From Massilia sp. UMI-21 (lineage in GTDB: Bacteria; Pseudomonadota; Gammaproteobacteria; Burkholderiales; Burkholderiaceae_D), in assembly GCA_015277795.1 (NCBI GenBank), contig CP063848.1:806001-870000 (forward strand): a DNA stretch of 64,000 nucleotides. Reading direction: 5' to 3'. Position 1 is the first letter of the stretch. Each line of letters begins with the position of its first letter. Below, piece by piece: positions 17,383-28,410 of this stretch. Both the position numbers and the translations under genes were made by a program. A model generated the notes under the pieces. That model was given only the letters and a program-made list of their open reading frames with translations, was not told the DNA's origin and did no database searches.

Positions 17383-17444
17383 ATTTTCGCCTTGTCCCGT
17401 CCTGAAATCGGTTGTCTAAACTTGCCTTATTCAAGGAGAGCGAG

Positions 17445-17840
17445 ATGGCGATTGAGGGAAAGCGTACCCAGGCTGACTACACCTTGGCTTTTAAACAGGG
17501 GGTAGTTGCCGCGGTCGAAAAAGGCGAGATGACTTACAAAGAGGCGCAGAGGAAGTTCGGCATCCAGGGTCGAAGTACGGTGCTAGTATGGTTAAGACGA
17601 TACGGGCAGCAGGACTGGAGTTCGCTAGCTTTGCAACTTGTACGAGCCCAACCGGATATGACGCGACCTCTCACCCCCGAGCAACGGATCAAGCAGCTGG
17701 AAGCCGAGCTGGAAACCTCCCGGCAGCAGTCGCTCGTCTATAAGACGATGCTCGACGTCCTGGCCAAGGAGCATGGAGTGGCTGTCGTAAAAAAGCCTTT
17801 GCCCGAACAACGCAAATCCTTACGGAAAAAGAAGACCTGA
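17445..17840 (+). CDS. IS3-family transposase OrfA
   Basis: 131 aa. N-terminal helix-turn-helix that binds the IS ends (FKQGVVAAVEKGEMTYKEAQRKFGIQGRSTVLVWLRRYG), followed by a leucine-zipper-like coiled coil (QRIKQLEAELETSRQQSLVYKTM...). The ATG at 17445 has a strong AAGGAGAG ribosome-binding site. The end contains CGG-AAA-AAG; slipping back one base there (around 17826-17831) joins OrfB to give the OrfAB transposase, as in other IS3 elements. Confidence 0.93.
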   Translation: MAIEGKRTQADYTLAFKQGVVAAVEKGEMTYKEAQRKFGIQGRSTVLVWLRRYGQQDWSSLALQLVRAQPDMTRPLTPEQRIKQLEAELETSRQQSLVYKTMLDVLAKEHGVAVVKKPLPEQRKSLRKKKT

Positions 17841-17860
17841 GCGTTAGCCGGGTCTGCCAG

Positions 17861-18709
17861 TTGTTCGGGATCAGCCGTCAAGCACACTACAAGCGATTGC
17901 ATGCAGAAATTGGACGAACGGCACGCAACCGTGTGGCCGAGAAGTTAGTGCAGCAAGTACGGCTACGCCAACCCAGGATCGGCACGCGCAAGCTCTACTT
18001 TTTGCTCAAACGCCAATTTGTGCAGGCAGGATTAAAGCTGGGACGGGATGGACTGTTCGATGCACTGCGGCGCGCCAGGATGCTGGTGCATCCAAAACGC
18101 TGCTACCGCAAGACCACTAACTCCAAACACTGGATGCGCAAGCATCCAAATCTGGTGAAAGCGCAGGCTAAGCCAACGATGGCCGAGCAGCTGTGGGTGG
18201 CCGACATCACCTACATCGAAACGCGGGAAGCGACCGGCTACCTTAGCCTGGTGACCGACGCTTACTCGCGCAGGATCATGGGGCACCACTTGCACCATGA
18301 CCTGCACACCGACGGAGTGCTGAAAGCATGGAGCATGGCACTACGCTGCCGGGGCACCGAACGCCAGCTGATCCATCACTCCGACCGCGGCCTGCAATAC
18401 TGTGCAGAAGCCTATCAGCAGATTCATCGCCGGCACGGCGTTTTGTGCTCGATGACCGACGGCTACGACTGCTACCAGAACGCCTTGGCAGAACGAATCA
18501 ACGGTATTTTGAAGGCCGAGCTCTTGACTGCAGTGCCTCAAAACTTGGAGCAAGCCGCTACCATGGTGCAGCAGGCGATCCACATCTATAACCATGAGCG
18601 CCCGCATACGGCGCTGCAATACAGAACGCCCGATGCGGTGCACTGGGCGTCAGTAACATCAGATCTACAGGGTAACGAAAAAGGCCGTGACCCTGTCAAC
18701 CTACCTTAG
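17861..18709 (+). CDS. IS3-family transposase OrfB (DDE integrase domain)
   Basis: 282 aa counted from a TTG at 17861. The frame is open from the slippery run at about 17828 (..EDLSVSRVCQLFGISRQ), so the active protein is normally the OrfAB fusion. An HTH_21 region is followed by the rve integrase core with the catalytic triad: D in VADITYIE, D in IHHSDRGLQY, E in NALAERINGILKAEL. The YNHERPHTAL end motif is intact. No internal stop or frameshift is seen, so the element may be active. Confidence 0.92.
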   Translation: MFGISRQAHYKRLHAEIGRTARNRVAEKLVQQVRLRQPRIGTRKLYFLLKRQFVQAGLKLGRDGLFDALRRARMLVHPKRCYRKTTNSKHWMRKHPNLVKAQAKPTMAEQLWVADITYIETREATGYLSLVTDAYSRRIMGHHLHHDLHTDGVLKAWSMALRCRGTERQLIHHSDRGLQYCAEAYQQIHRRHGVLCSMTDGYDCYQNALAERINGILKAELLTAVPQNLEQAATMVQQAIHIYNHERPHTALQYRTPDAVHWASVTSDLQGNEKGRDPVNLP

Positions 18710-18745: not shown

Positions 18746-18952
18746 TTACGCCTGCGGCTGGATGTTCGCGGCCTGCTTGCCCTTCGGGCCGGCAGTGATG
18801 TCGAAGCTCACGCGCTGGTTTTCGGCCAGCGATTTGAAGCCTTGCGAATTGATGGCCGAAAAATGCGCAAAGACGTCTTCGCCGCCGCCGTCCGGGGTGA
18901 TGAAGCCGAAACCTTTTGCATCGTTAAACCACTTTACAGTGCCAGTCGCCAT
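18746..18952 (-). CDS. cold-shock protein (CspA family)
   Basis: 68 aa single cold-shock domain, an RNA chaperone. RNP1 is KGFGFITP and RNP2 is VFAHFSAI. The start [17 protein letters not shown] is family-typical. AGAGGGAATTACC precedes the ATG. Upstream a TATAAT on the minus strand (19045-19050) gives a leader of roughly 85 nt; csp genes often have regulatory leaders. The IS3 element lies immediately downstream. Confidence 0.95.
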
Positions 18953-19146: not shown

Positions 19147-20556
19147 TCAGAAACTGAACGGCATGCGTACCGTCAGCGACACATCCGGGGTGTCGCGGGT
19201 CACGCCCGCACCCACTGCGACCGAGAGCGAACGCTTGTCATTGAAACGGTAGGAATAGCCGAGCAGCAGGGTGCCGAGCTGGGTGCGGACCGATCCCGGC
19301 ACGGTGCGGCCATTCTGCTTCATGCGTCCCACCGTGCTGTGGTCGTAGCCGAGGCTGAGCGAGGCCTTGTCGTTCAGCGCCAGGCCCATGCCGAAATTGA
19401 AGCCGATGATCGGGCCCGGTTCCAGCTCTCCCAGCGGCTCGCGGATGTCGTTGCGCACCAGGCGCTCGACGTTGCTGCGCTTGAAGTTGTGCAGGTAGCT
19501 GAGGTTGCCGAAAAACACCGCCGGGTCGGACGGGAACAGCCAGGTCAGGCTGCCCTGCAGCGAATGGAAGCCCGAGCCGGTCGGGAGGCTCAAGGGCAGG
19601 CCGGTGCCGGTCACGTTCTCGCCGATGCAGCGGGTCTGGCAATCGGTGACGACTTCGAACGGGTCCTTGCCGGTCACCGATTTATAACGCAGGCCGGCGA
19701 TGTAATAGGGTTTGTCCGGGCCACCATTGTTCAGCTGGTAACGGCCGGCCAGCTCGATGTCGCCCAGGGCCTTGCCGCTGGTGTTGAACACGCGCTCGAC
19801 CGCGGTGCCGGTGAAGATCTCGCGGCTGACGGTGGCGTCCGAGCGGTACACGTAGGGAAGCTTGAGCTCGACTTCCATCCGGTTGCTCAGGCCGGTGCGG
19901 GCGGTGAGCGAGCCGGTGAAGGTGTTGCGCTTGACCTCGCGCACGTCCACCAGGCCGATCAGCAGGGCCGGGATCACGGTATAGCCGACCAGGGCCACGC
20001 GGTTGCTCGACGAGTAGCCGAACTGCAGGGCCGGTTCCAGGATGTACTTGCCGCGCGGGGTCAGCACGCCGGGGGCTTCGAACAGCGGCGCCACCTCGGG
20101 CGGGCGCTGGTTGTTCGGCTTGTCCTGTTTGCGGGCGGCGGTGTTCTGCTGGGCCTGCGCGGGCGCACGCGCCGCCGGCTGGGCCGGGGCCGGACCGGCC
20201 GGGACCGGCGCCGCTGGACGATTGTTGTTCGGCGCGCCGCTGTTCTGCCCGCCCGTGCCGCGCTGCTCGGACAGCAGCTGGTCGTCGGCGCGCGGCGGCA
20301 GGGCCGGCCCGTCGGCCAGGAGCGGGGCGGCGTCGTCGCGGCGTTCTTCGATGCGGTCGATCTTGGCGCGTTGCGCCTGCAGTTCGCGCATCAGCTTGTC
20401 GACCAGTTCGCGCTGGGCGGCCAGTTCGGCCTTCAACTGGGCCAGTTCGGTCGCCTTGTCGTGCTCGGCGTCCGGCATGGCCTGGGCATAGGCGACCGGG
20501 GCCAGCAGCATTGCCGCCAGGCCGGCGGCGCCGAGACGCGCGACATGAGTGGGCAT
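19147..20556 (-). CDS. FapF-like outer-membrane protein: periplasmic coiled coil plus beta-barrel
   Basis: 469 aa. Signal peptide (VARLGAAGLAAMLLAPVAYA), then a heptad coiled coil (about residues 28-75, ELAQLKAELAAQRELVDKLM...), a Pro/Ala/Gln-rich linker (about 95-160), then about 300 residues of alternating amphipathic strands ending in VSLTVRMPFSF with a C-terminal aromatic, as in outer-membrane barrels. This architecture is that of FapF, the pore that secretes amyloid subunits in Pseudomonas. The ATG at 20556 is chosen for its GGAG-AAACGA ribosome-binding site; an upstream TTG and ATG lack one. Last gene of the five-gene operon. Homology is judged from architecture and operon context only. 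Confidence 0.75.
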   Translation of the reverse strand: MPTHVARLGAAGLAAMLLAPVAYAQAMPDAEHDKATELAQLKAELAAQRELVDKLMRELQAQRAKIDRIEERRDDAAPLLADGPALPPRADDQLLSEQRGTGGQNSGAPNNNRPAAPVPAGPAPAQPAARAPAQAQQNTAARKQDKPNNQRPPEVAPLFEAPGVLTPRGKYILEPALQFGYSSSNRVALVGYTVIPALLIGLVDVREVKRNTFTGSLTARTGLSNRMEVELKLPYVYRSDATVSREIFTGTAVERVFNTSGKALGDIELAGRYQLNNGGPDKPYYIAGLRYKSVTGKDPFEVVTDCQTRCIGENVTGTGLPLSLPTGSGFHSLQGSLTWLFPSDPAVFFGNLSYLHNFKRSNVERLVRNDIREPLGELEPGPIIGFNFGMGLALNDKASLSLGYDHSTVGRMKQNGRTVPGSVRTQLGTLLLGYSYRFNDKRSLSVAVGAGVTRDTPDVSLTVRMPFSF

Positions 20557-20593
20557 TCGTTTCTCCATCGACAAAATTTATAATATTGCAATG

Positions 20594-21112
20594 TTACAGG
20601 CTTCCTGCCGAGCGCACGATTGCGTCGCGAATGGTTGACTGAAAATTGATGTCCTTGATGAGCGCCATGCTGTTGACGGTGGAGGTGATGGTGGTCTGCG
20701 CCAGGATCGCCTGGTGGTCCAGGCTGTTCTGCACGAAGGTGGCGCCGCTGCCCAGGCCGAGGTCGCCCGGGGCGAAGTTGCTGCCGCCGATCTGGATCAG
20801 GCGGGCGCTGCCCAGCGCTTCGCGCGCCTGCAGCAGCTGGTCGGCATTCATCGACGCCACGTCGGGAATCGCGACGTTGGTGCGCGACAGCACCTCGCCG
20901 TTGACCGAGACCACGCGCTCGATCCCGAGCGAGATATTCAGGCCGCCGGGCACCTCGAAGCCGCCGCGGGCGCCGTCGAGCGTGGCGGTATCCACCGCCG
21001 CCCATTCGGCGGCGTCGATGACCACGGCCTGTTGCTGGGCCAGGGCCGCGGCGCAGGCTCCGGCCAGCAGCGTGGCCACCAGGGCGCGGCATGCATGTGT
21101 GAGCCAGTGCAT
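20594..21112 (-). CDS. secreted protein of the amyloid operon (FapE-position)
   Basis: 172 aa. Signal peptide (LTHACRALVATLLAGACAAALA, cut near residue 25). The mature part has GGFEVPGGLNISLGIERVVSVNGEVLSR, then GATFVQNSLDHQAILAQTTI with STVNSMALIKDINFQSTIRDAI: short Asn/Gln-containing beta-forming stretches like those of amyloid minor subunits. No CxxC motif, unlike the Pseudomonas Fap subunits. GAAAGGATTCACC before the ATG supports the start. It lies 11 bases after the C39 gene and 37 bases before the FapF-like gene. The FapE comparison rests on gene order, not on visible identity. Confidence 0.65.
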   Translation of the reverse strand: MHWLTHACRALVATLLAGACAAALAQQQAVVIDAAEWAAVDTATLDGARGGFEVPGGLNISLGIERVVSVNGEVLSRTNVAIPDVASMNADQLLQAREALGSARLIQIGGSNFAPGDLGLGSGATFVQNSLDHQAILAQTTITSTVNSMALIKDINFQSTIRDAIVRSAGSL

Positions 21113-21123
21113 GGTGAATCCTT

Positions 21124-21804
21124 TCAAAAGTCGCCCGGGCCGAATTTCGGCAAGCTCTGGCTGTACTGTTCCTGGTTGATGCCGGCGCCGAGCGGCGCGC
21201 GCGGGGCGCTGCGCCAGTCCTCGACCGCATTGAAGGCCACCGTGCCCGGGTACTTGTGCACCACGAATAGCAGCTTGTTGGCCCAGAGTTCCATGAAGCG
21301 TTCGCGCGTGACCGAGCGCGCGCCGCTGGACGGGTCGCCCAGCAGGATGCGGCCGTCCTCGGCGCCCTTGATGACGACGAAGTGGTTGTAGCCGCGGTCG
21401 GTGATCAGAACGATGGCCGGCAGTTTCGCTTCGAGCAGCTTGTCGAGCGGCTGCTGGAAGCCGTCGCCGACGAAGCCGCGGGTGGCCAGGTAGCGCTTCA
21501 TGTCGAGCATCGAAAAGCCCTGCTGGCGGATCTTGGCCTGGTCGCCGCTCAGGTACATCTTCTCGAAGACTTCCTTCTCGCTCACCGGGGTGCCGTAGTG
21601 GTAGGTGAGCAGGGTGGCCAGGGCGGCCGAGCCGCAGCTGAAGTCGAACTGCTGGCGGGTGGTATTGCGGAACTTGATGTCCTTGAGGGAGGTGACCGGC
21701 ACCGTGGCGCGCTGGCCGACGGCCAGTTCGATGCCGGATGCCGGGCACCGGGGTGCCAGCAGCATGCCGCACAAGGCGGCAGAGATGGCGAAGAACTTGT
21801 TCAT
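21124..21804 (-). CDS. C39-family peptidase-like protein (FapD-like)
   Basis: 226 aa. Signal peptide (KFFAISAALCGMLLAPRCPAS) followed by a papain-like C39 domain. The catalytic Cys is in QFDFSCGSAALATLLTYHY, the His in GYNHFVVIKG and the Asp in LLGDPSSG. C39 enzymes cut double-glycine leaders. The Fap systems carry a periplasmic member, FapD, needed for correct amyloid export. It lies 13 bases after the small subunit gene and 11 before the next, so it is co-transcribed. Typical ABC-transporter parts are absent, which fits FapD rather than a bacteriocin exporter. Confidence 0.8.
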   Translation of the reverse strand: MNKFFAISAALCGMLLAPRCPASGIELAVGQRATVPVTSLKDIKFRNTTRQQFDFSCGSAALATLLTYHYGTPVSEKEVFEKMYLSGDQAKIRQQGFSMLDMKRYLATRGFVGDGFQQPLDKLLEAKLPAIVLITDRGYNHFVVIKGAEDGRILLGDPSSGARSVTRERFMELWANKLLFVVHKYPGTVAFNAVEDWRSAPRAPLGAGINQEQYSQSLPKFGPGDF

Positions 21805-21817
21805 AAAGCCTTCATGC

Positions 21818-22207
21818 CTATTGCAGTCGCAGGTTGATGACGGTGGCGTTCTGGATCAGCACGTTCGAACCGCTGTTCTGGATGACCATCGGCAGGCCTT
21901 GCGCATTCGCGAAGGAGCCGCTGTCGATGACGTTGTTGCCGCTGACCGTGTTGACGGCCGTGTTGTTGCCCACCGTGCCGCCCAATACCGCCTCGGTGTG
22001 GACGGTATCGTCCTTGCCGGTGGTGCGCCCCAGGCGCTCGCTGCTTGCGGCTTCGCCCCAGGCGCTGCCGGCGCTAGCCTCGGCCGGTGCCACGTTCACT
22101 TCAGTCAGGAAGCTGATCTTGACCGGAAGCGTCGCAGGATCGGCGGCCTGGACCGCCAGCGGGAGCGCGACCAGCGCCGCCAGCACGAATCGGTTCACAG
22201 GTTTCAT
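21818..22207 (-). CDS. small secreted amyloid-like subunit
   Basis: 129 aa. Signal peptide (NRFVLAALVALPLAVQA). The mature protein ends with GNNTAVNTVSGNNVIDSG, then MVIQNSGSNVLIQNATVINL, an Asn/Gln/Val alternation like curli or Fap repeats. Its last 25 residues resemble the C terminus of the 682-aa neighbour (ISQNNGFSSLIQQSVNVQS). No cysteine in the mature part. The ATG at 22207 has GGGGAAATGT before it; a longer frame from 22249 is not preferred. It follows the large Gly-rich gene by 64 bases and precedes the C39 gene. It may be nucleator or chaperone, by analogy with FapB/FapA. Confidence 0.7.
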   Translation of the reverse strand: MKPVNRFVLAALVALPLAVQAADPATLPVKISFLTEVNVAPAEASAGSAWGEAASSERLGRTTGKDDTVHTEAVLGGTVGNNTAVNTVSGNNVIDSGSFANAQGLPMVIQNSGSNVLIQNATVINLRLQ

Positions 22208-22271
22208 ACATTTCCCCTTCGAGTCGGAAAACCGCCGCGCGGCTTGCACCGCGCGGCGGTCCTTGCAGGCC

Positions 22272-24320
22272 TTACTGGCCGCTGCCCACGTTCATGTTCG
22301 ACTGAACGTTGACGCTCTGCTGGATCAGCGACGAGAAGCCGTTGTTCTGGCTGATCACCGAGACGCCTGCAGCCGACTGGGCGATGTTCGACATGCGGTT
22401 CGACATGTCGAAGGCGCCGGTGGTCACCGACTGGGTGCCGCCGTTGCCGCCCTGGCCGTTGCCGCCGTTGCCGCCGGTCGCCATGCCGGCGGTGTTGGAG
22501 CCGCCCATGCCGCCTTCGCCGCCGGTCGAGCTGCCGCCCATGCCGCCTTCGCCGCCGTTGCCGCCGGTGCCCGAGCCCGAGGTGCCGGTGCCGCCGCTTG
22601 CATCGCCGTTGGTGGCGTCGCCGCCTGCCGCACCGGTGCCGCCCATGTTCGAGGCTGCGCCGCTGGCTGCGCCGTTGCCGCCGTTACCGCCGGCTGCGCC
22701 CGCGCCGCCCGCAGCACCCGCGCCGCCGTCGCCGCCCGAGCCGCCCGCGCCGCCCATGCCGCCTTCACCAGCGGCCGCACCCGCGCCGCCGGTCGAGGTG
22801 CCGGCTGCGCCTGCGCCGCCCATGCCGCCTTCGCCACCGGTGCCGGAAGCACCCGCACCCGCGGTGCCCGCGGCGCCTGCGCCGCCGGTGCCGCTCAGGG
22901 CTGCGCCGGCGCCGCCGGTGCCGCCCATTGCCTCGCCACCCGATGCGCCGGCGCCGCCGGTCGAGGTGCCCGAAGCGCCTGCGCCACCTGCGCCGCCTTC
23001 TGCGCCGGCTGCGCCGTTACCGCCCATGCCGGCGGTCGAGTCGCCGCCGGTGTTGGTGGTGCCGTCGGCATTGCTTGCGCCTGCGCTGATCGCGCCGCTG
23101 GTGGTGCCGGCAGCGCCGCCTGCGCCGCCGGTGCCGGCCGCGTCACCCGAGCCTGGCATGCCGCCGGCGCCCGAGGTGGCGGTGTTGTCGCCGTTCATTG
23201 CCGAACCGCCGGTGGCGCCGGCCGATGCGGTCTGGTCCGAGCCGGTCGAGGAGCCGCCTGCGCCGCCCATGCCGCCATTGCCGCCCATGCCGCCGGCAGC
23301 GCCTGCGCCGCCGGTGGCGCCCGAACCGCCGCCCATGCCGCCGGCGCCGGCGGTGGTCGAACCGTTGCTGCCGCCGTTGCCGCCGTCGAGCGCGCCGCTT
23401 GCGCCGCCTGCGCCGCCGGTGGCGTCGCCGCCCAGGCCGCCGGTGCCGGCCGCGCCTGCTGCGCCGTTGCCGCCCATGCCGCCGTTTGCGCTCGACGCGC
23501 CGCCCATGCCGCCGTCGCCGCCTGCCGCGCCGGCACCGCCGGTGTTACCGCCTGCGCCTGCGCCGCCCATGCCGCCTGCGGCGCCCGCGCCGCCCATGCC
23601 GCCGGCCGCGCCCGCGCCGCCCGCACCGGTGCTGGCGTTGCCGGTGTTGCCGCCCATGCCGCCGGTGCCGCCGGCCGCGTTGCCGACCGAGGCTGCGCCG
23701 CTCGAGGCAGCGCCGCTCATGCCGTCGCCGGCGTCACCGCCGGATGCGCCGTTGGCCGACCCGCCGGCGCCGCCTGCCGCGCCTGCAGCACCGCGTGCTG
23801 CGCCGCCGGTCGCGTCGCCGCCGGCCGCGCCGGAACCGGCTGCGCCGTTGGCGTTGCCGCTGTTCATGGCGGAGTTGCCGATGTTGTTGATCTGGTTGTC
23901 GCTGACGTTGCCGGTCAGGGTGCTGGTCGAGCTGGCGGTCGAGTTGTTGAACGAATTCGCGACACTCGAGGTCGAGGTGCCGCCGTTATTGGCCGAGGCC
24001 GCGCCGGCTGCGGTGGCGCGGGCATCGCCCGAGCTGTTGTTCTGGCCGGAGGAGTCGCGCATGCTGTTATCCGAGCGATCGCTGCTGTCGGTATTGGTGT
24101 TGGTACGGGAGCGATCGCTGCTGTCGGTATTCGTGGTGGTACGGGAGCTGTTGTCCGAACGGTCGCTGCTGTCGGTGTTCGTCGTGGTGCTGTTGTTCGA
24201 ACGGTCCACGTTGGTGGTCTGGGTGTTGTCGCCACGGACACGTTCCACCGTGTTGGAGTTTTGTGCGTGGGCCATGCCGAAAGACAGGGCGATCGCGGTC
24301 GCCAGAATAGTGCGCTTCAT
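22272..24320 (-). CDS. 682-aa secreted Gly/Ala-rich repeat protein, candidate major amyloid/biofilm fibre subunit
   Basis: Signal peptide (residues 1-19, cut AHA-Q). Residues about 20-95 are Asn/Thr/Ser/Asp-rich with three repeats of NTDSSDRS. Residues about 115-157 have STLTGNVSDNQINNIGNSAM. Residues about 158-628 are almost pure Gly/Ala-rich repeats of GGMGGAGAAGG type, resembling mycobacterial PE_PGRS or spider-silk composition. The last 54 residues (TQSVTTGAFDMSNRMSNIAQ.. to VISQNNGFSSLIQQSVNVQS) are non-repetitive and shared in part with the next gene. No cysteine. First gene after the sigma-54 promoter; GGGGAGTAACAG precedes the ATG. Functional assignment is inferred from the operon. 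Confidence 0.75.
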   Translation of the reverse strand: MKRTILATAIALSFGMAHAQNSNTVERVRGDNTQTTNVDRSNNSTTTNTDSSDRSDNSSRTTTNTDSSDRSRTNTNTDSSDRSDNSMRDSSGQNNSSGDARATAAGAASANNGGTSTSSVANSFNNSTASSTSTLTGNVSDNQINNIGNSAMNSGNANGAAGSGAAGGDATGGAARGAAGAAGGAGGSANGASGGDAGDGMSGAASSGAASVGNAAGGTGGMGGNTGNASTGAGGAGAAGGMGGAGAAGGMGGAGAGGNTGGAGAAGGDGGMGGASSANGGMGGNGAAGAAGTGGLGGDATGGAGGASGALDGGNGGSNGSTTAGAGGMGGGSGATGGAGAAGGMGGNGGMGGAGGSSTGSDQTASAGATGGSAMNGDNTATSGAGGMPGSGDAAGTGGAGGAAGTTSGAISAGASNADGTTNTGGDSTAGMGGNGAAGAEGGAGGAGASGTSTGGAGASGGEAMGGTGGAGAALSGTGGAGAAGTAGAGASGTGGEGGMGGAGAAGTSTGGAGAAAGEGGMGGAGGSGGDGGAGAAGGAGAAGGNGGNGAASGAASNMGGTGAAGGDATNGDASGGTGTSGSGTGGNGGEGGMGGSSTGGEGGMGGSNTAGMATGGNGGNGQGGNGGTQSVTTGAFDMSNRMSNIAQSAAGVSVISQNNGFSSLIQQSVNVQSNMNVGSGQ

Positions 24321-24394
24321 CTGTTACTCCCCTTTGTGTATCACTGAAAGTTGATATGCCCGGCGTTCCATGAATACCGGTCCATCCTCCTATT

Positions 24395-24410
24395 AGCAGT
24401 TTGCGTGCCA
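24395..24410 (-). promoter_or_regulatory. sigma-54 (RpoN) -24/-12 promoter of the amyloid operon
   Basis: Minus-strand TGGCACGCAAACTGCT, matching TGGCAC-N5-TTGCA with the invariant GG (24408-24409) and GC (24396-24397) exactly 10 bases apart. Predicted start near 24384, leaving a leader of about 65 nt before the ATG at 24320. The gene directly upstream encodes a sigma-54 activator, which strengthens the call. Confidence 0.85.
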
Positions 24411-24665: not shown

Positions 24666-26006
24666 TCAGGGCGCGATGGAATGCTTGGCCATCAGGCGAT
24701 ACAAGGTCATGCGCGAAACACCGAGCTCGCGCGCGGCCTGGCTGATGTTGTTGCCGCACTTGGCCAGGCTGTTCCAGATGGCGATGCGTTCGGCGCTGCC
24801 GCGCGACTTGTCGAGTCCTTCGCGCAGGATGATGGCGTCGTCCTGCGGCGCCAGTTCGAGGTCTTCCGGCATGATCAGGCGATGCTCGGCCAGGACCATG
24901 GCGCGCCGCATCCGGTTGATTAGCTCGCGGATATTGCCGGGCCAGTCGTGCTGGGCCATGGCGCGCAAGGCCTGCTTGCTGACACCCTTGAGTTGCGGGC
25001 TCTTCTCATCGGCAAATTTGTTAAAGATGATGTCGGTCAGCAGGGGCAGGTCGTCCTTGCGCTCGCGCAGCGGCGGCACGCGGATCGGGAACACGCTCAG
25101 CCGGTAGTACAGGTCTTCGCGGAAGCGTCCCTCGGCCACCGCCTTGGGCAGGTCGACGTGGGTGGCGGTGATCACGCGCGCATCGACCGCCATCGTCCGC
25201 GTGCCGCCGACGCGGTAGATGGTGCGCTCCTGCAGGAAGCGCAGCAGGCTGGCCTGCAGGTCGAGCGGCAGGTCGCCGATTTCGTCCAGGAAGATGCTGC
25301 CGCCCGAAGCCGCCTCGATCAGGCCGGGCTTGTCCCTGGTCGCCCCGGTAAAGGCGCCGCGCTCGTAGCCGAACAGTTCGGAATGGATCAGCGCAGGCGG
25401 AATGGCGGCGCAATTAATGGCAATGAAAGGCCCGCCGGCACGCGGCGACTGCGTGTGGATTTCCATTGCCGCCAGTTCCTTGCCGCTGCCGCTTTCGCCG
25501 GAGATCAGCACCGGCGCATCGACCGCGGCGATCTTGTCGATGTGGGCGCGCAGGCGGCGGATTGCCACCGACTCGCCGTCGATATGGCGGGTGCCGCAGG
25601 CGCGCTGGTGGGGCGGCGTGGATGTGGCCAGCATCGCCATGCCGTGCGCATGACCAAGCGCATGGTGCAGGCGCATCGTATCGACCGGACGGGTATGGAA
25701 GTCGCACAGGTGGGTGGCGATGGCCTGGCGCAGTTGCGGGCGGTGCAGCAGGTCGGGACCGAACACGCCGATCCAGCGGATGTGGTGGTGCTGCTGGAGG
25801 AAGCGTTCGGTGTCGTCGCCTTCGAGGCTGCCGTCGCCGTCGAGCAGCAGCCCGACCGGGTAATGCTGCTGCGTCAGGACCTTGCGCGCGGCGCCGATGC
25901 TGTCCACCGTGCACACGTCCCAACCCCGCAACTCGCCGCAGGCCGCGCGCACGCCGGCGTTGCCCTCGTTCGTGATGCATAAGAGTCGTTTGACCGACAC
26001 ATTCAC
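24666..26006 (-). CDS. sigma-54-dependent transcriptional activator, VpsR type
   Basis: 446 aa. The N-terminal VpsR-like pseudo-receiver (about residues 6-125, with THLCDFHTRPVDTMRLHHAL) is followed by an AAA+ domain with Walker A GESGSGKE (170-177), the sigma-54 contact loop GAFTGA (217-222) and Walker B GGSIFLDE (235-242), then a C-terminal Fis-type HTH (NISQAARELGVSRMTLYRLM). GAFTGA shows it can remodel sigma-54 holoenzyme. Relatives control exopolysaccharide and biofilm genes and some bind cyclic-di-GMP. GTG at 26006 is taken as start; GTG at 26000 with a better GAGGTGA is equally possible. The gene ends 346 bases upstream of the operon it probably activates. Confidence 0.9.
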   Translation of the reverse strand: MNVSVKRLLCITNEGNAGVRAACGELRGWDVCTVDSIGAARKVLTQQHYPVGLLLDGDGSLEGDDTERFLQQHHHIRWIGVFGPDLLHRPQLRQAIATHLCDFHTRPVDTMRLHHALGHAHGMAMLATSTPPHQRACGTRHIDGESVAIRRLRAHIDKIAAVDAPVLISGESGSGKELAAMEIHTQSPRAGGPFIAINCAAIPPALIHSELFGYERGAFTGATRDKPGLIEAASGGSIFLDEIGDLPLDLQASLLRFLQERTIYRVGGTRTMAVDARVITATHVDLPKAVAEGRFREDLYYRLSVFPIRVPPLRERKDDLPLLTDIIFNKFADEKSPQLKGVSKQALRAMAQHDWPGNIRELINRMRRAMVLAEHRLIMPEDLELAPQDDAIILREGLDKSRGSAERIAIWNSLAKCGNNISQAARELGVSRMTLYRLMAKHSIAP

Positions 26007-26211: not shown

Positions 26212-28410
26212 TTAGCGTATTGACGAAGGCGCCGTGCTGCTGGCGGCGGCGCGCGCCAGCAGCGTCACCAGGCGCTCGATCGCATAGGGCTTGGCCAGCA
26301 CCCGCACACCCGGGATCGCAGGCTGGCGTTCGGTATAGCCGGTGGCCAGCAGTACCGGCAAGCTGGGGTGGCGCTGGCGCACGATGGTGGCCAGGTCGAT
26401 GCCGTTTACCGTGCCGGGCATGACGATGTTCGAGAACACCACGGCGGGTCGGAGGCCGCCGTCGAGCAGGGCCACGGCCTGCTCGCCGTCGTGGGCAACC
26501 ATGACCTCGAAGCCGGCTTCTTCGAGTGCGTGCGCGACCGCTTCGCGCACCAGCGGGTCGTCTTCGACGAACAGCACGCTGCCGCGCGCGCGCGGCAATG
26601 GCGCGCCAGGCGCCGCCGGCAATGCGTCCGGCGCCGCCTGCTGCGCGCGCGGCAGGTAGATGTCTACCCGCGTACCCCGGCCGGGCTCGCTGTCGAGCAG
26701 CAGCAGGCCTTGCGACTGCAGGGCGAACGCGTAGGCCTGCGGCAGGCCGAGGCCGGTGCCCTGGCCCTGGGCCTTGGTGGTGTAGAAGGGGTCGAGTGCG
26801 CGCGCCAACACCTCGGGTGTCATCCCGCTGCCGGTGTCGCTCACGCTGACGCGCACGTAGTCGCCGGGTGGCAGCGCAGCCAGGGCCGCGCTCGCGGCAG
26901 GATGGCCCAGGCCGAGATGGCGCGCCTCGATGCGCAGCACGCCGCCGTGCGGCATCGCGTCGCGCGCATTCACCGCCAGGTTCAGCAGCGCCAGGTCGAA
27001 TTGCAGGGGCTCGACGGTCACCGGCCAGGACGGCTCGTCGCAGTCGATCTGCAAGACGATGTCGTCACGCAGCGCTCCGCTCATCAGCTGGCGCGCACTG
27101 CGCAGTTGCCGGCAGGCATCAACCGTCTCCTGGCGCGCTTCCTGGATGCGGCCGAAGGAGCCGAGCTGGCCGGTCAGGGCGGTGGCGCGCTGCACGGTCT
27201 TCTTGCAGGTCTGGACCAGGCCACTTACCTTCTCGTCCTTGTTCCTGAGTTCGACCAGTTGCAGCGCCGTACTGAGGGTCTGGAGCAGGTTGTTGAATTC
27301 GTGGGCGATGCCGCCGGTCAGGCGGCCCAGCGCTTCCAGCTTCTGCGCCTTGAGCAGGGCGTTCTGGACACGCTCGGTGGTCGCCACCGCTTCGGCGACC
27401 CGCTGCTCCAGCACCTGCTGCGATTGCCGGATCTGGCGTCCGGCCTCGGCCATGCGCAGCGCGACGTTGTCGATCTCGACCAAGCCCTGTGGCCGGTAGC
27501 TGATCTCCTTGCCCTGGCCCAGTTCGTCCGCGCCTTGCCCGAGATACTCGATCGGGACGATCGCGCGCCGCGCCAGCCGGTGCGCCGCCAGCATCCCGGC
27601 CGCCAGCAGTGCCGCCATCAGTGTGCCCAGCAGGGCAGCGGCGCGCAGCGGCACGCGGCGGATGTCGCTGTTCGGGATGCTGATCAACACCTTCCAGTCC
27701 GAGGCCGGCACGGTATCGAAAAAGGCGCGCACGTCGATGTCGTCGAGGGTGCGGCTTTGCCACAGTCCGCGCTGGGCGGCCTGGAGCCTGTGCAGGGCGG
27801 CCGCGCCGGCCCGCTCGCCCACGTAGCGTTCGGGATTGCGCGAACGGGCCAGCACGACGCCCTGGCGGTCGACCAGTGTCACGATCCACTCGGGCCGGAA
27901 ATGCTGGCGTTCCAGCAGCGGCTGCAGGGTCGCGAGATTGATGCCCATTGCCAGGTGATAGCGTACCCGACCGTCGATTCTGACCGGTACCTGGATGGCG
28001 TAGTCGGGACGCTTGTCCAGCGGCGCGATGAACACGTCGGACACCAGCATGCTCCCGGCGCCGTGGCGCTCCATGAGTGCCTCGATCGTCGCCACCCGCC
28101 GTAGCGGCAGGGCGGCGCCGAAGGACTGGCGTGTATTGAGCAGCTGGCGTCCGTCGAGGTCGCTCAGTACGATGACGGTGTCGCGCGCGGGCGCGATGCG
28201 GCGCGCATAATCGTAGAACTGCCGCAGCTCGCCTGTTTGCACGCTGGCCGACTCGGCCAGCGTGCTCAGGATGTCGGCGCGCGCCTGCAGCTCGTTGTCC
28301 ACCAACAGCGCGAAGGCGCGCGTGGCATCGGCCACGTTGCGGGTCTGCGCCGTCTGTTCCTCGTGATACACGTAGCTGACCGCCAGCGCGGCCGCGATGA
28401 ACGACGGCAC
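26212..28410 (-). CDS. hybrid sensor histidine kinase with a degenerate receiver
   Basis: 732 aa as drawn. N-terminal membrane segment, a dCache-like periplasmic sensor (about residues 20-250), a second membrane segment (about 257-277), HAMP-like linker, coiled coil, HisKA with His370 in GGIAHEFNNLL, HATPase_c (NLAVNARDAM, DTGSGMT, GTGLGL) and a C-terminal receiver. The receiver keeps VEDD, ATGYTE and AKPY, but the acceptor Asp is Asn661 (VVFSNIVMPG, codon at 26428-26430). The GTG at 28410 cuts the first membrane helix; the open frame continues upstream (RIRSRLLILVLAIL) without a standard start codon until a stop near 28496. It lies 205 bases before the VpsR-type activator. Confidence 0.82.
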   Translation of the reverse strand: MPSFIAAALAVSYVYHEEQTAQTRNVADATRAFALLVDNELQARADILSTLAESASVQTGELRQFYDYARRIAPARDTVIVLSDLDGRQLLNTRQSFGAALPLRRVATIEALMERHGAGSMLVSDVFIAPLDKRPDYAIQVPVRIDGRVRYHLAMGINLATLQPLLERQHFRPEWIVTLVDRQGVVLARSRNPERYVGERAGAAALHRLQAAQRGLWQSRTLDDIDVRAFFDTVPASDWKVLISIPNSDIRRVPLRAAALLGTLMAALLAAGMLAAHRLARRAIVPIEYLGQGADELGQGKEISYRPQGLVEIDNVALRMAEAGRQIRQSQQVLEQRVAEAVATTERVQNALLKAQKLEALGRLTGGIAHEFNNLLQTLSTALQLVELRNKDEKVSGLVQTCKKTVQRATALTGQLGSFGRIQEARQETVDACRQLRSARQLMSGALRDDIVLQIDCDEPSWPVTVEPLQFDLALLNLAVNARDAMPHGGVLRIEARHLGLGHPAASAALAALPPGDYVRVSVSDTGSGMTPEVLARALDPFYTTKAQGQGTGLGLPQAYAFALQSQGLLLLDSEPGRGTRVDIYLPRAQQAAPDALPAAPGAPLPRARGSVLFVEDDPLVREAVAHALEEAGFEVMVAHDGEQAVALLDGGLRPAVVFSNIVMPGTVNGIDLATIVRQRHPSLPVLLATGYTERQPAIPGVRVLAKPYAIERLVTLLARAAASSTAPSSIR

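Follow-up and report, generated by a model that had tools for sequence, protein, structure and literature searches.

What kind of system is built around a secreted protein one third of which is glycine? Five genes in a 64,000-nucleotide stretch of the Massilia sp. UMI-21 genome (contig CP063848.1, positions 806,001 to 870,000; the whole stretch is called the window below) raise this question. They follow one another on the minus strand from 24320 to 19147 of the window, with intergenic gaps of 64, 13, 11 and 25 bp in transcription order, and encode a Gly/Ala-rich protein of 682 amino acids (aa), a small secreted protein, a C39 peptidase, a third secreted protein and an outer-membrane barrel. 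An initial annotation had described five co-directional genes with short gaps; all the open reading frames are indeed present in that arrangement, 11-64 bp apart. It had read them as a distinct class of operon resembling that of the functional amyloid Fap. We think it likely, if well short of certain, that they form a Sec-dependent outer-membrane export system of the FapD/FapF type, sister to Fap, whose cargo, a Gly/Ala-rich fibre or matrix protein, would end up on the cell surface. The operon probably works like Fap. The parts of this reading that sequence supports are the identity of the barrel and the peptidase, the conserved operon, a conserved repeat module and conserved leader-like sites.

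The peptidase matches Pfam Peptidase_C39 (E 2.4e-22) and the NCBIfam models FapD (NF058616, 4.7e-40) and FilB (4.4e-37), and alignment to solved C39 domains puts Gln51/52, Cys57, His141 and Asp157 at the catalytic places. The barrel matches NCBIfam FapF (NF058560, 1.2e-41) and FilC (2.5e-10), and its residues 154-473 align with the crystallised FapF through to the C-terminus (E 2.5e-27). The best matches of the two proteins are FapD and FapF. An AlphaFold2 model of the barrel (built from 26 sequences, mean predicted local distance difference test score, pLDDT, 65.1) predicts a coiled-coil helix (34-78), a disordered linker and a barrel (175-473); a short helix (96-102), before a leader-like site in the linker to which we return, is predicted at low confidence (pLDDT about 40). 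With this model as query, the top 18 Foldseek matches are FapF chains (E 2.0e-15 to 8.8e-13), followed by the COG4313 channel 4rl8. The barrel carries the PTG motif as SLPTGSG. All this agrees with the FapF-like architecture claimed earlier for the barrel.

The other three proteins are less easily placed. The 682-aa, small and FapE-like (third secreted) proteins have no Pfam or NCBIfam model above its curated cut-off, and the FapB, FapC and FapE models have no match among the operon proteins of the window (for FapC and FapE at E<=1). Of the order FapD-FapE-FapF proposed for the last three genes, D and F stand by sequence, and E by its position and a shared leader site; the FapE-like protein matches the canonical FapE profile only around that site (12%, E 0.0024). 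As for FapA, only a 101-aa open reading frame that overlaps the regulator gene lies between the regulator and the 682-aa gene; it has no NCBIfam match, and no genome-wide search for FapA was made. FapA is described as often lost in Fap systems (PMC3792158).

Where might a FapD-type peptidase cut? The consensus given for C39 double-glycine leaders is L at -12, E at -8, L at -7, a hydrophobic residue at -4 and the double glycine (PMC6363468). The pattern that we used, [LM]...[RTSK]G[GKR], fixes -7, -2, -1 and partly -3, and leaves the other positions free. It was applied to a set of 79 distinct loci from the best 80 of 409 matching stretches, whose titles mostly name Massilia, Telluria, Janthinobacterium, Pseudoduganella, Rugamonas and Duganella. 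All 72 FapE-like proteins of this set carry the site, with V at -12 (89%), L at -7 (97%), R at -3 (97%), G at -2, G at -1 (99%) and then F (93%). The same is true of all 14 FapE-like proteins from sister operons found at class level (V/L at -12, 86%; E at -8, 64%; L at -7, 93%; L/M/I at -4, 92%; RGG; then F, 86%) and of all 17 canonical FapE proteins (L/V at -12, 83%; S/T at -11; D at -10, 65%; E at -8, 59%; L/M at -7; M/I/L at -4; R at -3, 94%; G at -2; R/K at -1; then Y/F). Positions -12 and -4, left free by the pattern, also fit the consensus: -12 is hydrophobic in all FapE-like proteins, all canonical FapE and 83% of the small proteins, and -4 in 64% of FapE-like proteins and 94% of canonical FapE. 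The small proteins of the 79-locus set have the site in 62 of 72 cases in its strict form (R, G/R/K) and in 70 of 72 in a relaxed one, and L...RG.G stands in the linker of 68 of the 70 full-length barrels. Genomes of the same family give 29/29 for the FapE-like protein, 26/29 (strict) and 29/29 (relaxed) for the small protein and 29/30 for full-length barrels; class-level small proteins are weaker (3/11 strict, 5/11 relaxed).

If -12 is added to the pattern and whole proteins are scanned, 72/72 FapE-like and 51/71 small proteins are found, against a background of 1/58 for the Gly-rich protein, 1/73 for C39, 2/55 for the VpsR-like activator and 14/304 for other genes. A protein database queried with FapE has this fuller pattern in 118 of the best 120 of 502 relatives (the top named matches are from Stenotrophomonas), and with the FapE-like protein of the window in 120 of the best 120 of 150, the relatives in both cases being close to one another and not independent cases. 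We conclude from these alignments that the FapE-like protein fits the double-glycine leader consensus, and that the small protein and the barrel linker appear to do so in variant form. The site predicts where FapD-type proteases would cut. Something of the same kind is seen in loci of the Fil type, a putative pilus system: five of seven at family level have small secreted proteins near the C39-barrel pair that bear such a leader after the signal peptide, for example LSEQELAAVCGQ and LSDAALSSVRGG. Some of the carriers match FilA or DUF6160, and the pattern occurs in 7 of 240 other genes within the first 75 residues. Since it was chosen after one locus, also matches unrelated membrane stretches and had its matches sorted by eye, we treat the Fil leaders as a lead only.

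A broader suggestion can be made, towards which we lean cautiously. The FapD/FilB-type C39 peptidases of the Fap, Fil and Gly-rich systems may define a pathway in which partner proteins pass through Sec and would then lose, in the periplasm, a leader of the form L(-12)xxxE(-8)L(-7)xx(hydrophobic -4)(R)G(-2)[G/R/K/Q](-1). The linker of the Gly-rich barrel likewise carries such a site, and there a single protease would therefore serve two ends, maturation of the cargo and gating of the pore.

Is the whole operon kept among relatives? In the 79 loci the barrel gene was called 79 times, C39 73 times, the small and FapE-like genes 72 times each, the Gly-rich homologue 58 times and the VpsR-like activator 55 times. 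Six of the 21 loci without a called Gly-rich homologue show the barrel only, starting 13-105 bases from a contig end, and one on a short contig is also without the small gene; of the remaining 14, 13 lie on contigs that stop 17-667 bases beyond the small gene on its upstream side, and one has an N gap. The fibre gene is missing from kept loci only at contig ends or gaps. In 54 of 57 complete five-gene sets all genes share a strand, and in the other three the barrel gene is inverted. Beyond this set, FapF is matched at E<=1e-10 in 35 of 145 genomes of the family and 39 of 369 in a class sample, canonical Fap and Fil-type loci included, and the small-protein profile matches 9 of 299 genomes in a phylum-wide sample.

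A double-glycine leader is a typical mark of peptides destined for export (PMC6363468), and one could imagine a C39-barrel pair devoted to the export of small peptides or signals, with the small protein as cargo and the Gly-rich protein incidental. This we hold to be very improbable: in kept loci the Gly-rich gene is called wherever the contig extends past the small gene, save for the one N gap, and the C-terminal module of the 682-aa protein matches that of the small protein (hhalign 84.5%, E 6.9e-06).

Some draft assemblies deserve a separate remark. In 13 loci with the small gene (within L108-L186) they often break inside or beside the Gly-rich gene, which may therefore be undercounted in public genomes. 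A barrel gene without a Gly-rich homologue on the piece at hand was seen in L047, L049, L061 and L062, three of them on short contigs or contig ends; L061, from the family genomes, is an extra barrel copy alone on a long contig.

Could the operon be merely a diverged canonical Fap and no separate class? The peptidase and barrel families, the gene order and the FapE leader logic are the same, and VpsR-like activators also lie near 16 of the 18 canonical Fap loci examined. Nevertheless, maximum-likelihood trees of 78 barrels and 72 peptidases both place canonical Fap in one clade (support 100/98 for barrels, 94/97 for peptidases) and the Gly-rich operons with their class-level sisters in another (100/99 and 97/97). 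The FapB, FapC and FapE models, which miss here, do find L031, a canonical fap operon from the same bacterial family (1e-22 to 1e-25, though these matches too fall short of the cut-offs), and the fibre architecture differs as well. We therefore do not file the operon as Fap, and think simple divergence unlikely; the distinct class suggested in the initial annotation is borne out by both trees. The Gly-rich sister loci L095 and L092 are nearest neighbours of, or fall among, the Gly-rich operons (in the peptidase tree, the placing of L092 is weakly supported). Long branches in several of the Fil, sister and Fap rows leave the order between groups unsure.

We now turn to the exported protein itself. 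It consists of a signal peptide (recognised by eye), an Asn/Thr/Asp/Ser-rich stretch, a conserved N-module, a Gly/Ala block and a conserved C-module. Gly makes up 33% and Ala 19%; there is no Cys, so the absence of CxxC reported earlier is correct. The description 'mostly GGxGGA repeats' fits residues 156-630 fairly well, where 211 of the 475 residues are Gly and 110 are Ala, and does not suit the rest. In this block Gly residues three apart are over-represented (lag-3 pair fraction 0.278; 1000 shuffles average 0.197 and reach at most 0.233), with a phase that drifts along its length. No Pfam or NCBIfam family matches the protein at E<=1, and the proposed kinship with PE_PGRS, a matter of composition only, was dropped. 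Its relatives have the signal peptide, N-module and C-terminal module in common, and the block between them differs in length and composition: Gly content across 58 homologues runs from 0.09 to 0.37, and is lowest in a Rhodoferax metagenome-assembled genome (0.09) and in Massilia timonae (0.12), whose homologue has a long Asn/Thr-rich N-terminus. Sister operons from other families place this C-module after a stretch of 3-9% Gly in which Asn, Ser, Asp and Thr are the most abundant residues (L094, L096, L099, L100, L101; L088 is less extreme), or after a Gly-rich block (L092, L095), and L090 and L098 have four tandem C-module copies. The view of the Gly/Ala block as the defining core is not supported, since it is the least conserved part and gives way in sister operons to such Asn/Ser/Asp/Thr-rich sequence. 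We read it as the variable part of the fibre protein, the conserved part being mainly one C-terminal repeat of 39 residues. Long variable FapC linkers are known from Pseudomonas fibrils, where they have been interpreted as a 'fuzzy coat' or softer, flexible periphery (PMC12392863); the Gly/Ala block could be such a linker taken to an extreme.

Antisense to the Gly-rich gene, a Pro-rich frame of 681 aa is open at 22309-24354 (+); it is most likely a mirror effect of GC-rich Gly/Ala codons.

Because an iterated profile of the repeat drifted across families, we relied on shuffle-controlled hhalign. The C-module aligns with 16 repeats of sister operons, drawn from 10 of the 16 class-level loci by a pattern modelled on this motif, at 97.7% (E 1.7e-12, score 55.0; maximum of 60 column shuffles 15.4). 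Some of the sister repeat proteins had been flagged earlier by a profile search without that pattern, though that profile drifted. The C-terminus of the small protein family matches the same repeats (97.3%, E 2.3e-11), and we propose a FapB-like role for this protein, which ends in the same kind of repeat. On this evidence the C-terminal repeat is conserved across sister operons. A protein search with the C-module alone gave 22 candidates, none at E<=0.001, which we do not read as absence since the genome scans contain many relatives. The N-module was considered as a second repeat and rejected (hhalign 0.2% to both canonical and sister repeats). The view that the fibre subunit looks nothing like FapC thus needs qualifying: the FapC model finds no match and, in place of the three imperfect repeats of FapC, there is a single terminal one, yet sister operons have that repeat in tandem, and their copies are weakly similar to canonical Fap repeats, scoring above all 60 column shuffles.

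Must the protein then be an amyloid? The export machine could be as described and the 682-aa protein a silk- or polyglycine-II-like matrix protein or an adhesin, with the small and FapE-like proteins only anchoring it. A Gly period of three above all 1000 shuffles would suit such a protein, although its phase shifts along the block; a single repeat would suit it too, although this repeat, tandem in L090 and L098, is the best-kept part besides the signal peptide and N-module. In sister operons Asn/Ser/Asp/Thr-rich sequence takes the place of the middle, a replacement to be expected of a coat or an adhesin. A polyglycine-II bundle as such was discarded, AlphaFold2 predicting no such fold (mean pLDDT 38.6, low confidence throughout). 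We regard a matrix protein or adhesin as possible, and as less probable than an amyloid-like fibre.

Regulation offers further hints. The activator encoded upstream has VpsR (Pfam, 7.1e-11) and Sigma54_activat (1.1e-67) domains, and its gene lies on the strand of the Gly-rich gene in all 54 kept loci that hold both. An exact -24/-12-type site occurs once in the 64 kb; as sites with one mismatch (5 in the window) do not exceed expectation (6.8), only its placement speaks for it. In relatives such a site stands 80-91 bp upstream of the Gly-rich gene in 9/54 (strict) or 23/54 (relaxed) cases, compared to 0/343 and 4/343 upstream of other genes and 9/3000 and 64/3000 in random windows; as a universal feature it was rejected. 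A link to cyclic di-GMP may exist here. Upstream of the VpsR-like gene and co-directional with it is a gene for a hybrid histidine kinase (26212-28410, minus strand; receiver and dCache match below cut-off). It was set aside as a part of the system, phmmer having labelled it only in the window among 41 loci.

How might such an operon work? The VpsR-like activator would switch it on together with sigma-54, and Sec would carry all five proteins out of the cytoplasm. In the periplasm, the C39 peptidase would remove the double-glycine-type leader from the small and FapE-like proteins; in the Gly-rich group it may also clip the barrel linker, between coiled coil and plug, at L...RG(T)G. The trimeric barrel would then let the 682-aa protein through, together with its small partners. 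Once outside the cell, the 682-aa and the small protein would stack by their C-terminal repeats, of which each has one, into an amyloid-like core. The small protein would nucleate this core, and the Gly/Ala block would form a flexible coat.

Several observations weigh against this scheme. The equivalog cut-offs are not reached (FapD 137 against 330 bits, FapF 143 against 700), though no genome in the family (145) or class (369) searches reaches that of FapF, and the FapE model has no match. The 682-aa protein has no conserved leader site: VERVRGD here, with ARGG or VRGG in some Massilia relatives, was considered and rejected, the full pattern occurring in 1/58 homologues. The small protein of the window has TGK in place of RGG, and -4 is hydrophobic in 49% of small proteins. 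The linker site is found in 0/10 class-level sisters and 1/14 canonical FapF, against the 29/30 at family level, which rules it out as a property of the whole barrel family and limits it to the Gly-rich group. AlphaFold2 gives no fold for the 682-aa protein, and the match of its C-module to the sister repeats is partly by choice, given how these were selected. The link between this repeat and those of canonical Fap is no more than suggestive: compared with 70 canonical repeats, sister repeats give 42% and a score of 18.9 (maximum of 60 shuffles 16.3), the small protein C-terminus directly 16.1, barely over its maximum of 15.4 in 40, and the C-module directly 12.9, not above shuffles (maximum 15.0 in 40). 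Finally, a 2023 figure legend has FapD modifying FapC, not FapE (PMC10638192).

Targets of FapD have been proposed before. In the 2017 paper (PMC5557850) FapD is a C39 peptidase whose active Cys is needed for secretion of FapC by the Pseudomonas operon in E. coli, and its target 'remains unclear'; FapB and FapC were seen intact, the first ~70 residues of FapE went unseen by mass spectrometry, and the FapF linker was said to be possibly cut, with canonical C39 sequences absent. A 2016 review had pointed to a double-glycine motif in FapF (PMC5135000), and in a review of December 2025 FapD 'is thought to' process FapE and the periplasmic region of FapF (PMC12822426). What we add is therefore the site. 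Among the matches listed in our literature search, which lay outside supplements and most subscription papers, no title or abstract start names a FapD cleavage site or describes a Massilia-type Gly-rich operon. Sister operons retain an undisguised Arg-Gly-Gly, and it is this that exposes the matching Arg-Gly-Arg/Lys-Tyr/Phe site in canonical FapE. From a target called unclear in 2017 and processing still 'thought' in 2025 we thus come to a proposed site; short peptides and a single protease are enough to test it. The system shows, in addition, that the amyloid-like repeat and its spacer evolve separately, spacers on related exporters ranging from Asn/Ser-rich to one-third Gly. Natural fibre proteins with such spacers could be useful for understanding biofilm materials.

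Table. Features of the Gly-rich operon and its upstream region (positions in the window)
Feature	Position	Strand	Basis
682-aa putative fibre/matrix subunit gene	22272..24320	-	open reading frame, composition, alignment of relatives
Conserved N-module of 682-aa protein, about residues 86-160	23841..24065	-	shared with relatives
Variable Gly/Ala-rich block, residues 156-630	22431..23855	-	composition, Gly period 3, variation among relatives
Conserved C-module with one Fap-like repeat, residues 631-682	22275..22430	-	hhalign to sister-operon repeats
Small secreted protein, 129 aa (143 aa from upstream GTG)	21818..22207	-	alignment; C-terminal repeat by hhalign
Putative C39 leader site in small protein, LGRTTGK, residues 59-65	22013..22033	-	RGG in most relatives
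Periplasmic C39 peptidase, FapD/FilB-like, 226 aa (location predicted)	21124..21804	-	Pfam, NCBIfam, alignment to solved C39 domains
FapE-like secreted protein, 172 aa	20594..21112	-	operon position and shared leader site
Putative C39 leader site in FapE-like protein, LDGARGG-F (cut predicted before F), residues 45-52	20957..20980	-	
FapF-family outer-membrane barrel, 473 aa (475 aa from TTG)	19147..20568	-	NCBIfam, solved FapF, AlphaFold2, Foldseek
Putative C39 leader-like site in barrel linker, LSEQRGTGG, residues 99-107	20248..20274	-	
Sigma-54-type -24/-12 promoter-like site TGGCACG-N4-CTGC	24395..24410	-	90 bp upstream of 682-aa ATG
VpsR-domain sigma-54 activator, likely operon regulator	24666..26006	-	Pfam and shared strand in relatives

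Downstream of the operon there is an IS3-family element at 17412-18709 (+) (NF033516, E 5.3e-68 for a 282-aa and 1.3e-10 for a 142-aa open reading frame), and a cold-shock gene at 18746-18952 (-; CspE model, 3.1e-33) sits between it and the barrel gene. A search for curli gave 0 matches in the strain's own genome, with E. coli found as positive control.

We know other systems with which the operon can be compared. Mycobacterial PE_PGRS proteins are Gly/Ala-rich, and this is their sole likeness to the 682-aa protein, which has no match to the family (PE domain) and adjoins a FapF-type exporter. COG4313 channels such as 4rl8 share the barrel family and the PTG motif; they rank below FapF in Foldseek, and no C39 partner is reported for them (PMC6173800). 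Peptidase-containing ABC transporters have the C39 domain, its catalytic residues and the leader consensus in common with the operon, whereas here the peptidase would be free and exported by Sec, the leader follows a Sec signal peptide and the operon has no ABC transporter.

The Fil system (FilA-FilD models; DUF6160) also pairs a C39 peptidase (FilB) with a FapF-like barrel (FilC), and some FilA-like proteins carry a leader of the same kind. It differs in having an OmpP1/FadL-type FilD and FilA-like proteins, not repeat proteins, and falls outside the Gly-rich clade in both trees. Fil-type loci of the same family (L064-L070: C39, FapF-like barrel and, in L064, a FilD-like FadL protein) come with DUF6160/FilA-like secreted proteins, several of them with leaders.

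FapD and FapF are each members of a larger family (PMC3792158), and their co-location has been described in five more phyla (PMC6173800). A canonical fap operon is present in the same family as our operon (L031, 4373-12794), with a SiaD-like diguanylate cyclase gene upstream and a VpsR-like activator gene downstream on the other strand. Unlike Fap, the Gly-rich operon is without FapB, FapC or FapE model matches and without a FapA in the interval described above, encodes in the window a Cys-free, Gly/Ala-rich protein with a single repeat where FapC has three, belongs to a separate clade and has a linker site that is mostly missing from canonical FapF. With Fap of Pseudomonas it shares a FapF-family barrel with coiled coil and linker, a FapD-like C39 peptidase, the position and leader site of FapE, and a VpsR-like activator nearby.

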